The position numbers and the translations under genes were made by a program. From Natronoarchaeum mannanilyticum (GTDB taxonomy: Archaea; Halobacteriota; Halobacteria; Halobacteriales; Natronoarchaeaceae): a stretch of 64,000 bases of DNA. The notes beneath the pieces are model-generated. The model was not told the origin of the DNA. It did no database searches and saw nothing but the letters and a program-made list of their open reading frames with translations. Numbering within the stretch: the stretch's first letter is position 1; each line of letters opens with the position of its first letter. Where the stretch lies: positions 1 through 64,000 of the forward strand of contig NZ_BAAADV010000002.1 in assembly GCF_039522665.1 (NCBI RefSeq), read 5' to 3'. This document shows, one piece after another, positions 36,033 to 41,090 of the stretch.

Positions 36033-37358
36033 ATGGGACGGGACGTGACGCTCGACCCGGTCCACTTCGAGGGAATCACCCAACTCGCCCGCCGCATCAC
36101 CCGGTCTGTCGACGAGACGGACCAGGTCGAGTTCGTCGAAACCGTCTGGGAGGAGTTTCTCGACCCGCTGGTCGACGACGACGGACGGACCGTGCTCTCC
36201 CCGCTCGGCGAGCAGCGCCGCTGCGAGGTCGACGCAGAGGACGTCGCGCTGCGCGAGGCGGAGTACCCCACCTGTCACGGGCTGGACTCGGGGACGATCA
36301 ACCCGACGTCGTTCAAGAACGGGCTCGTGTTGGACGTCGCGCAGGCCGCGATGGCGTCGGCGCCCTCCGATCTGGAACTCCACCGCGACCGGACGGTCGT
36401 GATCACGGCCCACACCAACGACGCTGCGGTCGATCTCGACGACGACTGGACGAAGTGGGACGAGGGACACACCGACCGCCGGATGCTGCAGGCCCCGCGC
36501 GTGTCGAGCTTCGAGGAGAGCGTCGTCCACGAACTCGCGCTGTACCTCGCCGAGAGCCACCACGCCATCGAGCACGCCGACGCCGTCTCTGACCTGTTCG
36601 TCCTCGACGGCCCGATCTACCCCAAGGGGATGCTCAACTGGGCCGACCGCGCGCCCGAACTCGCGAATCTGCTGTACGACGAGCAGGAGCCCCGCGACGT
36701 GATCGAAAACTACGTCGAACTGGTCGAGACGTTCGCCGAGCGGGAGATCCCGCTGGTCGGCTTCGTGAAAAACCCCTCGACGAAGGCCGTCACCCGGGCG
36801 CTCCGAGCGTCGGGCCGGGAGGCGCCCTGGGTCAACGACACCGCATTCTTCACCAAGCTGCTCGAACAGGTCGAGTTCTCCGACCGGGTCGACGCCGACG
36901 GCGAGCAGTACCGCGAGCGCGAGCGCCGGACCGATTCGCTCACCTTCACCAACTGGTTCCGCTCGCGCGGCGGCGCCGATCGGCTGCTGTCGGCGGACGG
37001 CGACGCGTTCGGCGTCGAGCGCTCGCTCCCCGCGGAGGACTACGAGGTCACCTTCTTTCCGATCTACGATCCCCGTGACGACCTGCTGTACCGCGTCGAG
37101 GCGCCCTACGCGTTCACCAAGAACGAGGAGTGTCGCCGGCGGCTGACGATGCAACTGCTCCGGGACGTCGCGGCCGAGCGCGGCCCGCCGCTGGCCGTCC
37201 AGAAGGCCGACGAGCTCGCCCGGATCAGCGCCGACGGCACCGAGTCGCTGCGCAAAGAACTGGAGGCGACGTTCACGACTGATCGGATGCGGAGCTACGA
37301 CGACCGCCGGTGGACCGGCGACGGCGGGTGGGACGGCGGACAGGGCGAGGGATTCTGA
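36033..37358 (+). CDS. nurA: NurA family 5'-3' nuclease
   Basis: 441 residues. GLDSGTINP (about 83-91) carries the first metal-binding Asp and FVLDGPIYPKG (about 190-200) the second, the RNase-H-like active site of NurA. The C-terminal Tyr/Phe-rich part matches haloarchaeal NurA. With HerA it resects DNA ends during double-strand-break repair. HerA lies 1.9 kb downstream on the same strand, separated by a small minus-strand gene and a disordered protein. Its start is the first ATG of the frame. Confidence 0.87.
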   Translation: MGRDVTLDPVHFEGITQLARRITRSVDETDQVEFVETVWEEFLDPLVDDDGRTVLSPLGEQRRCEVDAEDVALREAEYPTCHGLDSGTINPTSFKNGLVLDVAQAAMASAPSDLELHRDRTVVITAHTNDAAVDLDDDWTKWDEGHTDRRMLQAPRVSSFEESVVHELALYLAESHHAIEHADAVSDLFVLDGPIYPKGMLNWADRAPELANLLYDEQEPRDVIENYVELVETFAEREIPLVGFVKNPSTKAVTRALRASGREAPWVNDTAFFTKLLEQVEFSDRVDADGEQYRERERRTDSLTFTNWFRSRGGADRLLSADGDAFGVERSLPAEDYEVTFFPIYDPRDDLLYRVEAPYAFTKNEECRRRLTMQLLRDVAAERGPPLAVQKADELARISADGTESLRKELEATFTTDRMRSYDDRRWTGDGGWDGGQGEGF

Positions 37359-37429: not shown

Positions 37430-37798
37430 TCAGGCGCCGGCGTCCGGTCCGGTTCGGGCTTTTGCGTCGGGCTCGGTCTTGGTCACCTCGATCTCGACGG
37501 CGTCGGCGTCGACGCCGATCCGGGCGAACTGCGTCCGGACGTGGTCGCGGGCCGCCGCGGTGGCCTGCTCCCTGGTGTCGAACCCGCGGGGCATCGGCGA
37601 CTCGAAGGCGACGTTGACCTCCTCGCCGTCGATCTGCTGGGTTGTCCCGCCGCTCTCGACCTCGTAGAACTCGTCGCAGACCCAGACGTAGGCGGCGTCC
37701 TCGTCGGGCGCGCCCTTGAACTGCGGCGCGCGCTCCCCCCGCTCGTAGATCGTACCGGTCAACTCGGTTCCACCGGCACTGCCGCGGACTAGTAACAT
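37430..37798 (-). CDS. DUF5807-like haloarchaeal protein
   Basis: 122 residues from ATG 37798 (MLLVRGSAGGTELTG). A beta-rich core with YVWVCDEFYEVESGG and a helical end TREQATAAARDHVRTQFARIGVDAD. I recall this as a small haloarchaeal family labelled DUF5807; no function is known. It is on the opposite strand between nurA and the disordered-protein gene. Confidence 0.7.
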   Translation of the reverse strand: MLLVRGSAGGTELTGTIYERGERAPQFKGAPDEDAAYVWVCDEFYEVESGGTTQQIDGEEVNVAFESPMPRGFDTREQATAAARDHVRTQFARIGVDADAVEIEVTKTEPDAKARTGPDAGA

Positions 37799-38051
37799 GT
37801 GACAACTAACGTGGGCTGCGACCAAAAGGTCGTTGGCGACGGCGGGCGATTTCCGGCGGTCGAGATCCCGTAACGTTCGGTTACTCGCGGGCCGGTGAGA
37901 CCGCATCCCGCGGATCGCCGTCGTCGACCCCTCCGGGCGCGTAACTGCAGCCTTCCCGAACCTCTCGACTGGCCGAACGCTTCCGTTCGTCGCTGAACCG
38001 TTCTGAACGGTTCGGCCCGTTATCCCTCCGCGCGGACTCGGTACTACTGCT

Positions 38052-39116
38052 ATGCCACACTACGATCCCGGTTCGGAAGATCGCCCGCACGGCGGCGACG
38101 CGGAGAACGACGAGGACAACTGGGGCCGTAGGCGCGCCCAGCGCGAGCGCCAGCACGGCGGGCAGGAAGACGACCGCGAGCGAGACGTCGATCGCAACCG
38201 CGGCGTCGATCGCGGCCGCGAGCGATCGGGCGGCGACGAGCCGACGCAGATCGACGATCGCGGGCGCAACGAGGGCCGGTCGGACGAGACGCAGGTGTCG
38301 CGACAGCGGCGTCAGCGAGGTCAGGGGCGCGGCCAGCGCGAAAACACGGACGAGCGCCGCGAACAGGGCCGCCGAGCCGGTAGCGAACGCCGAACCGAAG
38401 CTAGCCAGCAGCAGCGCCACGTGAGCGGTCGGGAGGAGCGAACGGCGCCCGACGGCGACCGGAACGCTCAGTCGGGCGGGGGCGAGCGCCGCGGGAGGCA
38501 GGGCGGCGAGCAGTACGGCGGAACGCAGGACAACCGGCAGGAACGACAGCGGCGGGCGCGGAACAGCGAGAACTTCCCGAGCGGCGATTCGGACCGCGGA
38601 AGCGAGGGCGGCGGACAGCGCGAGCGGTCCGGAAGCGATCGCCGGTACGGTTCGGCCGGCCAGTCGCGCGGCGGACAGTCCGGCGATCGGCGATCGGACT
38701 CCGGTCGGAGCGGCGGCCAGCGATCCGGCGGAGAGCGGGGCGGCGACCAGTTCTCGGTCGACGAGTCCCGCCACCGGGGCGAGGACGCCCAGTACGGCGG
38801 CGAGGGACGCCGACGCAACCGCGGCGGACGAGATCAGGGACGCACTCACCAGACGCCAGGGCAGCAAAACCCCGGGCAGTGGACGCAGGACGAGGAGCCG
38901 CGAGGACGGGATCGCGGTCAGCGCGCTCAGGGGCAGGAGCGATCCCTGCAGCAGACGGACGACCGACAACACCGCGGTCAGCAGAGCCGAAATCAGCGGG
39001 ACCGACGGGGACGGCAGTCCGAGGAGCCGAACAACACGTACCGACAGACCCAGGGCCAGGTCTGGAGCCAGCAGGGCGACGACCGACACGACGACCGCGA
39101 CGACGAGCGGTACTGA
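38052..39116 (+). CDS. intrinsically disordered Arg/Gly/Gln/Ser-rich protein
   Basis: 354 residues composed almost only of R, G, Q, S, D, E and N, with many RGG/RGQ/GGQ-like clusters. No hydrophobic core, no signal and no coiled coil. Third codon positions remain G/C-biased in this frame across its whole length, which argues it is truly coding rather than the opposite-strand frame of 914 codons that overlaps it. RGG-type low complexity is typical of RNA/DNA-binding, condensate-forming proteins, and is unexpected in an acidic haloarchaeal proteome because of its Arg content. It lies between nurA and herA. Confidence 0.72.
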   Translation: MPHYDPGSEDRPHGGDAENDEDNWGRRRAQRERQHGGQEDDRERDVDRNRGVDRGRERSGGDEPTQIDDRGRNEGRSDETQVSRQRRQRGQGRGQRENTDERREQGRRAGSERRTEASQQQRHVSGREERTAPDGDRNAQSGGGERRGRQGGEQYGGTQDNRQERQRRARNSENFPSGDSDRGSEGGGQRERSGSDRRYGSAGQSRGGQSGDRRSDSGRSGGQRSGGERGGDQFSVDESRHRGEDAQYGGEGRRRNRGGRDQGRTHQTPGQQNPGQWTQDEEPRGRDRGQRAQGQERSLQQTDDRQHRGQQSRNQRDRRGRQSEEPNNTYRQTQGQVWSQQGDDRHDDRDDERY

Positions 39117-39242
39117 GCGCCGAGACCGGTGTTGACGGCCCGTTCCCGAGGGGCCACCTCGCCCGCCCGAGCCCGGTTCGCTCGTCGGTCCCGCGATCCG
39201 GCGAGGGAAACGCGTTTTAGGGACGGCCCTAATGACCGGGAC

Positions 39243-41090
39243 ATGGCAGATCTGGGCGACTTCGAGGAGTTCGACGACGGCGCGGACGCGGACGACGCCG
39301 GGAGCCCGGCCACTGAGGCCGACGGGGACCCCGGCGATCTCGACGAAGCGTCGTCGGCGTCCGATGGGACGGGCGCGGAGGACGGCGTCGACGAGTTCGA
39401 AACGGTCGACGCCGATCCAGCGGGATCGGATCGGGGCATCGGGACGGTCGCGGTCTCCCAGGGGCTTCGTATCGCCGAGGACGCGGAGGACTCCTGCGTT
39501 CGCGCCTACATCACCGCCGGAAACCGGTCGTCGATCCGGATCGGCAAGTACCTGCTCGTGCCCTACCCCGACGGGGAGCGGCTGTTCGCGCGCATCGCCG
39601 GCCTGGAGTACGCTCAGGAGTTCCACGCCGACGACGCGACCGAGATCCACGCCCGGCGCGCGATGCGCCAGGACGGCATCGACGAAGCCGACTACAAGTT
39701 CCTCGCGGATCTCGAAGCGCTCGCCGTGCTGTACGAGGACGACGGCGAGCTCAAGCGCCGGATGACCGATCGGGTCCCGAAGCCCCAGACCGTCGTGCGG
39801 GAGGCGACCGACACCGGCGAGATCAAGACCGGTCTGAAGATCCCCGACGACGGCGTCTTCCTCGGACACCTCTCGGTCGGCGGCGAGAAAGTCCGGACGA
39901 GCGCCGAGCCGCCGACGATCGACTACCGGCTCAAGGACGACTACGAGGACGGCGACCCGCTCGCGTTCCGGCACACGCTCGTCGCCGGCGGCACAGGGTC
40001 GGGCAAGACCCACACCGCGAAGAATCTCCTCCGGCAGTTCCTCGACGAGGAGCGGACCTACCGAATGGACGACGGCCGACAGGCTCGCCCCGCAGTCGTC
40101 CAGTTCGACCCGCAGGACGAGTACGCCCAGATGCACGACGACAACGACGACCTCTCGGACGCAGACGCCCGCCGCTACGAGCGTGAAGGAATCGCCCACG
40201 GCGGCCACGACGACACGATCGCCTTCGTCCCGAAGGTCGGCGACGCGACGTACGCGACCGACGACCACCGCGCCGAGCAGGTCGAGTTCACGATTCCCTT
40301 CTCGATGGTGCGGGCCAACGAGTGGCTCGTCGCCGGCGGCGGCCTCAACGACAACCAGTACAACGGGTTGCGGCTGCTGATCGACCGCTTTTTCGACCAG
40401 TACGGCTCCGGCGGTACCTACGAGCAGTTCATGACGTTCCTCGACGACCCCGCGCTCCGGGAGGAACTCGACGAGGGCGGGCAAGTCCACGAGGCGACGT
40501 TCGACGCCGTCCATCGCCGGGTGCGAGGCTTCGGCAACGTGTTCGACCAGGACGCCCGCCCGATCACCGAGCAGATCGAGCGGTTCGTCCGCCCCGGCGG
40601 GATGACGGTCGTCCCGACGTACCACATCAACGACACGCGGGCGACCGAGACGATCGTGCTCGCCGTCTCCAGCCTGCTGGTCGACCAGAAGCTATCGAAC
40701 GACCCCCTCTACGACCGGATCAAGGAGACGCCGGTCGTCCTCGGGATGGACGAGGCCCACAACTTCCTCACCGACGCCGAGAGCGCGCAAGCGCGCCGTG
40801 TGATCGGCAAGTTCACCGACGCCGCCAAGCAGGGCCGCAAGGAGCGCTTGGGTCTCTTTCTGATCACGCAGGACCCGCAGGACATCGCCGATTCCGTGTT
40901 CAAGCAGATCAACACGACGCTCGTTCTCAACCTCGGCGACGAGGACGCCATCAAGAGCGTCAACATCCCCGCGAACTTAGAGAGCAAGGTCCCCTACATG
41001 GAGAAGGGCCAGATGGTCGTGTACTCGCCGGACAACTCCGAGCCGGTCGAGCTGACCGGGCTGTCGAACTGCGTGACGCGGCACAACTGA
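39243..41090 (+). CDS. herA: HerA-type DNA-translocating ATPase
   Basis: 615 residues from ATG 39243 after an acidic ~60-residue start. The beta-barrel HAS domain is at about 65-215, then Walker A AGGTGSGKT (about 248-256) and Walker B VVLGMDEAHN (about 497-506), and the C-terminal arginine-finger region of FtsK/HerA ATPases. HerA forms a hexamer that loads NurA for end resection. The fixed gene neighbourhood with NurA upstream supports the assignment. A universal stress protein gene follows. Confidence 0.9.
   Translation: MADLGDFEEFDDGADADDAGSPATEADGDPGDLDEASSASDGTGAEDGVDEFETVDADPAGSDRGIGTVAVSQGLRIAEDAEDSCVRAYITAGNRSSIRIGKYLLVPYPDGERLFARIAGLEYAQEFHADDATEIHARRAMRQDGIDEADYKFLADLEALAVLYEDDGELKRRMTDRVPKPQTVVREATDTGEIKTGLKIPDDGVFLGHLSVGGEKVRTSAEPPTIDYRLKDDYEDGDPLAFRHTLVAGGTGSGKTHTAKNLLRQFLDEERTYRMDDGRQARPAVVQFDPQDEYAQMHDDNDDLSDADARRYEREGIAHGGHDDTIAFVPKVGDATYATDDHRAEQVEFTIPFSMVRANEWLVAGGGLNDNQYNGLRLLIDRFFDQYGSGGTYEQFMTFLDDPALREELDEGGQVHEATFDAVHRRVRGFGNVFDQDARPITEQIERFVRPGGMTVVPTYHINDTRATETIVLAVSSLLVDQKLSNDPLYDRIKETPVVLGMDEAHNFLTDAESAQARRVIGKFTDAAKQGRKERLGLFLITQDPQDIADSVFKQINTTLVLNLGDEDAIKSVNIPANLESKVPYMEKGQMVVYSPDNSEPVELTGLSNCVTRHN

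Follow-up and report, generated by a model that had tools for sequence, protein, structure and literature searches.

An open reading frame (ORF) of 354 codons upstream of herA in Natronoarchaeum mannanilyticum probably constitutes a real gene, encoding a fully unstructured R/G/Q-rich protein that has so far been found in a single archaeon. The ORF lies in a stretch of 64,000 nucleotides (contig NZ_BAAADV010000002.1, positions 1 to 64,000; here termed the window). With a probability of roughly one half, we interpret it as a lineage-restricted orphan gene encoding a stand-alone disordered chain with a hydrophilin-like shielding or crowding role, outside HerA-NurA. The hydrophilin-like role is deduced from composition and could easily be wrong. 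The locus comprises the following features (positions of the window; G001 is a genome of the same genus).

36033..37358, plus strand: nurA (Pfam PF09376, E = 3.9 × 10−24)
37430..37798, minus strand: DUF7113 gene (Pfam PF23425, E = 6.1 × 10−57)
37813..37835, minus strand: stretch preceding DUF7113, conserved relative to G001, G003, and G005
37843..39196, no strand: DNA gained relative to G001 (edges approximate; about 55 nt in G001)
37995..38013, no strand: perfect dyad GAACCGTT-ctg-AACGGTTC, located 38 nt upstream of the start codon of the ORF
38052..39116, plus strand: ORF for a disordered R/G/Q/D/E/S-rich polyampholyte (354 aa, ATG to TGA)
39205..39222, plus strand: conserved GGGAAACGCGTTTTAGGG upstream of herA, identical in G001 and similar in other family members
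39243..41090, plus strand: herA (Pfam DUF87, E = 2 × 10−11; HerA_C, E = 1.9 × 10−7), 93% identical to G001

The frame was present exactly where a sequence-only reading of this DNA had placed it, and the R/G/Q/S/D/E make-up described there matched the residue counts (R75, G61, Q46, D38, E33, and S27, followed by N14 and T12). Leucine, isoleucine, and methionine occur once each, lysine and cysteine do not occur, and 11 aromatic residues are scattered along the chain. Arginine accounts for 21% of the protein, glycine for 17% (17.2%), glutamine for 13%, and acidic residues for 20%. With 75 R against 71 D+E, the product is a near-neutral polyampholyte, whose charge segregation did not exceed that of shuffled sequences (i.e. 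the charges are mixed). The richness in RGG and GGQ clusters claimed by the same reading proved to be overstated and mostly a matter of composition: three RGG were seen (2.2 in shuffles), 15 RG (13.0 expected by composition), and four GGQ (1.3 in shuffles, z = 2.4). The RGG sites lie at residues 206, 229, and 257, and no RGG pair with the spacing of di- or tri-RGG motifs (0–4 residues) was detected; close RG pairs of the di-RG type occur at 50/54, 89/93, and 284/288. Codons mostly end in G or C, as had been claimed (CAG 44, CAA 2; AAC 13, AAT 1), but GC3 was 0.81, compared with 0.83–0.96 in five clear neighboring genes.

Arginine-rich disorder had also been called odd for a salt-in archaeon, and the physical character of the predicted protein bears this out. 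Its pI is 9.8, vs 4.4–4.5 for HerA and NurA, and its GRAVY is −2.38. The charge-hydropathy value (0.235, with the boundary at 0.417) places it deep in the disordered region. A single-sequence AlphaFold model, a type of model that constitutes weak evidence, had a mean pLDDT of 49 and a pTM of 0.21. Low-complexity sequence is frequent in halobacterial proteins, and such low-complexity regions (LCRs) average 34% acidic residues (PMC6821194), compared with 20% acidic residues alongside 21% Arg in the ORF protein. If expressed, the protein would provide a natural test of an Arg-rich, nearly neutral disordered chain in molar salt, set against the rule of acidic halophile proteins and LCRs. A literature search on haloarchaeal proteins that are disordered and Arg-rich, of RGG type, or hydrophilins returned nothing directly relevant.

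Very probably, 38052–39116 codes for protein on the plus strand. An unsupervised segmentation for 3-periodicity was run on the DUF7113-herA interval with neither start nor stop supplied. It returned 38075–39112 as the best periodic segment, 112 nats above homogeneous DNA, which comes to roughly one codon from the stop of the ORF and about 23 nt from its start. In-frame composition shifted sharply at the ATG and at the stop. Length on its own is a weak argument, since 31 of 1000 first-order random sequences of 1.35 kb (3.1%) held an ATG-initiated ORF of at least 354 codons.

A strand control was needed because antisense frames of haloarchaeal membrane-protein genes resemble R/G/Q/D/E-rich ORFs. 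Raw codon usage was about equal on the two strands of the ORF DNA (0.482 vs 0.479), after which we considered that the true gene might lie on the minus strand and encode a hydrophobic membrane protein, with the ORF as its reverse complement. The minus frame is indeed open for 914 codons and its translation hydrophobic (GRAVY +1.3); moreover, hydrophilic R/G/Q/D/E-rich frames are common in the N. mannanilyticum genome, where frames antisense to membrane-like ORFs have a high content of R, D, E, and G. A composition-corrected codon test, for which sets of soluble and membrane genes were chosen by composition filters rather than by annotation, nevertheless preferred the plus strand. The corrected z-score of the plus reading was −3.5 (5th percentile of real soluble genes, −9.2; antisense of membrane genes, −18.8 to −8.1), while the minus reading scored −7.9 (5th percentile of real membrane genes, −3.7). 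The codon difference D was +4.5, compared with −19.8 to −5.4 for antisense of membrane genes and 5.4 to 21.7 for real soluble genes. The plus-strand codon signal is thus clear and slightly weaker than that of typical genes.

Composition, segmentation, and homology spoke against a minus-strand gene as well. Relative to shadows of membrane genes, the plus-strand protein contains more S, N, T, G, and Q and less A, V, L, and P. The minus-strand protein is unlike membrane proteins, with 4.5% Gly (10.7% in membrane proteins), neither Met nor Tyr, and high Pro and Ser. The periodic segment stops at the plus-strand stop, whereas the minus frame continues to 37881. A homologue search with the minus frame found nothing convincing, the best other hit being a short, weak match (E = 0.0027). 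The corrected codon statistics, the segmentation, and this search led us to reject the minus-strand membrane gene, which we regard as extremely unlikely. For annotation of GC-rich archaea the case calls for caution: R/G/Q/D/E-rich ORFs often turn out to be shadows of membrane genes on the opposite strand, so that a strand test is needed, which this ORF passed.

The ORF does lie in the interval between nurA and herA, as the sequence-only reading held, although that reading omitted the minus-strand DUF7113 gene between nurA and the ORF. The likely start of DUF7113 is 37798; its open frame reaches 37906, and alignments to relatives start at about residue 37 of this longer frame. On its other side, the ORF ends 126 nt upstream of herA on the same strand. 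The order nurA, DUF7113, herA is also found in G001, with DUF7113 and herA as divergent neighbors. Their starts are 1444 nt apart here vs 84 or 126 nt in G001 (depending on the start codon), and the remaining family members have spacings of 90–133 nt (six genomes) and 368 nt (G004). The DUF7113-herA site is empty, i.e. without the ORF, in every one of the eight relatives within the family (G001 plus seven). Homology to G001 restarts at 39197, upstream of the conserved GGGAAACGCGTTTTAGGG, which probably represents the BRE/TATA promoter of herA; likewise, 37813–37835 is probably the promoter region of DUF7113. Both putative promoters were kept beside the gained DNA, and the conserved flanks together with the long spacing imply that this lineage acquired about 1.3 kb between them. 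The locus offers a clear example of gene gain, with one genome carrying the gene and a congener keeping the compact empty site.

Among the other haloarchaeal loci screened, none had a comparable ORF in the DUF7113-herA gap. In some haloarchaea that are less closely related, this gap is occupied by other, unrelated genes. In G030 (L035:2130-3791) and Natrinema altunense G014 (L039:3336-5255), the gap contains two other genes, one resembling a DNA-binding regulator and one encoding a secreted, membrane-anchored protein; in many Natrinema-type loci the gap has a similar size of about 1.9 kb.

Scanning the region for further elements was largely negative. No strong promoter was identified upstream of the ORF, no terminal inverted repeats of an insertion sequence were present at the edges of the insert, and a sigma-70 and terminator scan, which is not suited to archaea, returned nothing. 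No RNA family was detected in the region; one sub-threshold chance match fell inside herA. Tandem-repeat expansion was rejected, as repeats were only weak and short. The dyad GAACCGTT-ctg-AACGGTTC is one of three short, statistically marginal dyads within 37870–38013, together with GTAAC-gttcg-GTTAC and CGAACG-cttc-CGTTCG. The genome contains a single copy of it (P about 0.07 for 8-bp arms), which may be a product of chance; an operator regulon was accordingly discarded.

Homologue searches, whose sensitivity is lowered by low-complexity filters and bias corrections, consistently returned the ORF as a single sequence. Apart from the ORF itself, the protein searches recovered nothing but compositional noise, at E-values of 0.028 or worse. 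A search of its own genome at E up to 10 gave no homologue, and none of the family genomes contained one. Neither did 196 genomes of the order, in which the best other match had an E-value of 0.028 and the ORFs behind weak matches were unlike in composition. A pattern scan of 84,980 species across GTDB, which needs near-exact peptides, was negative, as were searches of viral contigs, plasmids, and phages. Pfam yielded no family at E up to 0.1, LEA families included, and no match was found in NCBIfam, PHROGs, or PDB. A DNA-level search with the insert gave short, low-scoring matches only. As judged from these comparisons, the ORF is an orphan (taxonomically restricted) gene, with no detected homologue and an empty orthologous site in relatives. 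The sequence-only reading had suggested checking conservation in haloarchaeal nurA-herA loci; the frame is not conserved in relatives, yet its codon statistics are still those of coding DNA.

Since selection is not measurable on one sequence, it is quite possible, if rather unlikely, that the ORF is young or decaying and has no function: stop-poor, GC- and purine-rich DNA might be open by chance and perhaps be translated into a harmless disordered peptide. Its restriction to a single genome, the 3.1% of random sequences of like composition that hold an equally long ORF, and a codon signal weaker than in most genes would all be in keeping with such an origin. The same low codon difference (4.5, below the 5.4 to 21.7 of real soluble genes), the low GC3, the failure to identify a strong promoter upstream, and the single known sequence count against a functional orphan gene. 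On the other hand, 3-periodicity confined to the ORF and host-like codon choice are unexpected in a recent random ORF, which would have had to be translated for some time or to descend from coding DNA.

The sequence-only reading had further proposed that the protein may bind DNA/RNA and form condensates with HerA-NurA at breaks, which would make it a repair factor. The position of the ORF next to herA, 126 nt upstream on the same strand, is compatible with such a tie. The gene is, however, absent from the DUF7113-herA gap of every other family member and of the other haloarchaeal loci screened, and no relative shows a conserved linkage with herA or nurA. Furthermore, DUF7113 separates the ORF from nurA, and the conserved promoter-like element of herA itself separates it from herA. 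Because gene linkage is not conserved, the condensate model has lost its main support, and we consider it very unlikely. The alternative granted by the same reading, that the protein may be independent, was its better half.

According to the preferred interpretation as a lineage-restricted orphan, the gene would have been gained in the lineage of this species between the divergent DUF7113 and herA promoters. Its product would be a free, highly hydrated, fully disordered chain of R, G, Q, D, E, and S, strongly charged yet nearly neutral, and would not form a fixed part of HerA-NurA. High polarity might keep the chain soluble in molar salt, where it could act by shielding or crowding and contact RNA, DNA, or proteins weakly and without specificity. 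Hydrophilins are defined by a Gly content above 6% and a hydrophilicity index above 1. By composition only, the ORF protein resembles them (17.2% Gly, hydrophilicity index 2.38, predicted to be fully disordered), but it differs from them in being Arg-rich and Lys-free, and it matches no LEA or other Pfam family.

After hydrated shielding or crowding, nucleic-acid binding is the next candidate for a role. The protein might be an RNA chaperone-like or nucleoid-associated factor, independent of HerA-NurA, an explanation that we regard as unlikely. As in RGG/RG-motif nucleic-acid-binding proteins, the chain is disordered and rich in Arg and Gly; its 21% Arg is interspersed with Gly, Gln, and Ser spacers, three pairs among its 15 RG are closely spaced, and the scattered aromatics fit as well. 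In contrast to those proteins, it has three widely spaced RGG, is as acidic as it is basic, and lacks a folded RNA-binding domain. Its net charge is about zero, D+E balance R in a mixed pattern, neither RG nor RGG counts exceed those of shuffles, and molar salt weakens Arg-phosphate contacts. That a charge-balanced, Arg-rich, stand-alone disordered protein undergoes phase separation or serves as a nucleic-acid scaffold in molar KCl is quite improbable; if true, arginine-based condensates would be workable in a salt-in cytoplasm of otherwise acidic proteins.

About 1.26 Mb of the N. mannanilyticum genome was read as stretches; when paralogues were sought by simple composition, non-coding frames overwhelmed the results. 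Other R/Q/G-rich disordered segments sit on proteins with folded or helical parts. These include (i) C2:104384-105262 (L174:381-1262, minus strand), which combines a core that is probably helical with long Q/G/R-rich tails terminating in GGQQTGGGRR repeats and has no Pfam match; (ii) C3:222201-223424 (L238:2201-3424, plus strand) and C4:170646-171668, a two-CBS-domain protein whose N terminus is a disordered, Q/P/R/G-rich tail of ~260 aa; and (iii) C1:561503-562612 (L221:1503-2612, plus strand), with an N-terminal half that looks helical and phasin-like, a disordered C-terminal half rich in Q, G, R, and S, and no Pfam match. The first of these has sister-genus relatives that are 52–58% identical and matches in 17 of 40 relatives. 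For the two-CBS protein, the CBS part is kept in the sister genus, while the Q/G/R tails, which start with a similar MRDRDTPDRRP-type motif, have strongly diverged. Descent of the ORF from such proteins was rejected, as it did not align with those at C2:104384-105262 or C3:222201-223424. The tails of proteins (i) to (iii) share long R/Q/G-rich low-complexity stretches with the ORF but differ in being joined to folded or helical parts and in containing more Q and P and less D/E. Such sequence is therefore not unique to the ORF: R/Q/G-rich disorder is a recurring style in this genome, of which the ORF is a stand-alone, more acidic example.

HerA and NurA are said to be absent from Haloferax volcanii (review PMC7776575), yet close Haloferax species (L149-L156) encode homologues of the HerA (71–74% identical) and NurA (56–58%) of the window beside DUF7113. 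The HerA of the window scores far below the NCBIfam HerA cut-offs, which might explain the lack of a name for such homologues. Some relatives, namely G001 (C2:197889-199751), G013, G018, and G033, encode a second HerA-like ATPase, which is distant (33–36% identical); in G001 and G013 it adjoins a distant NurA (26–29% identical).
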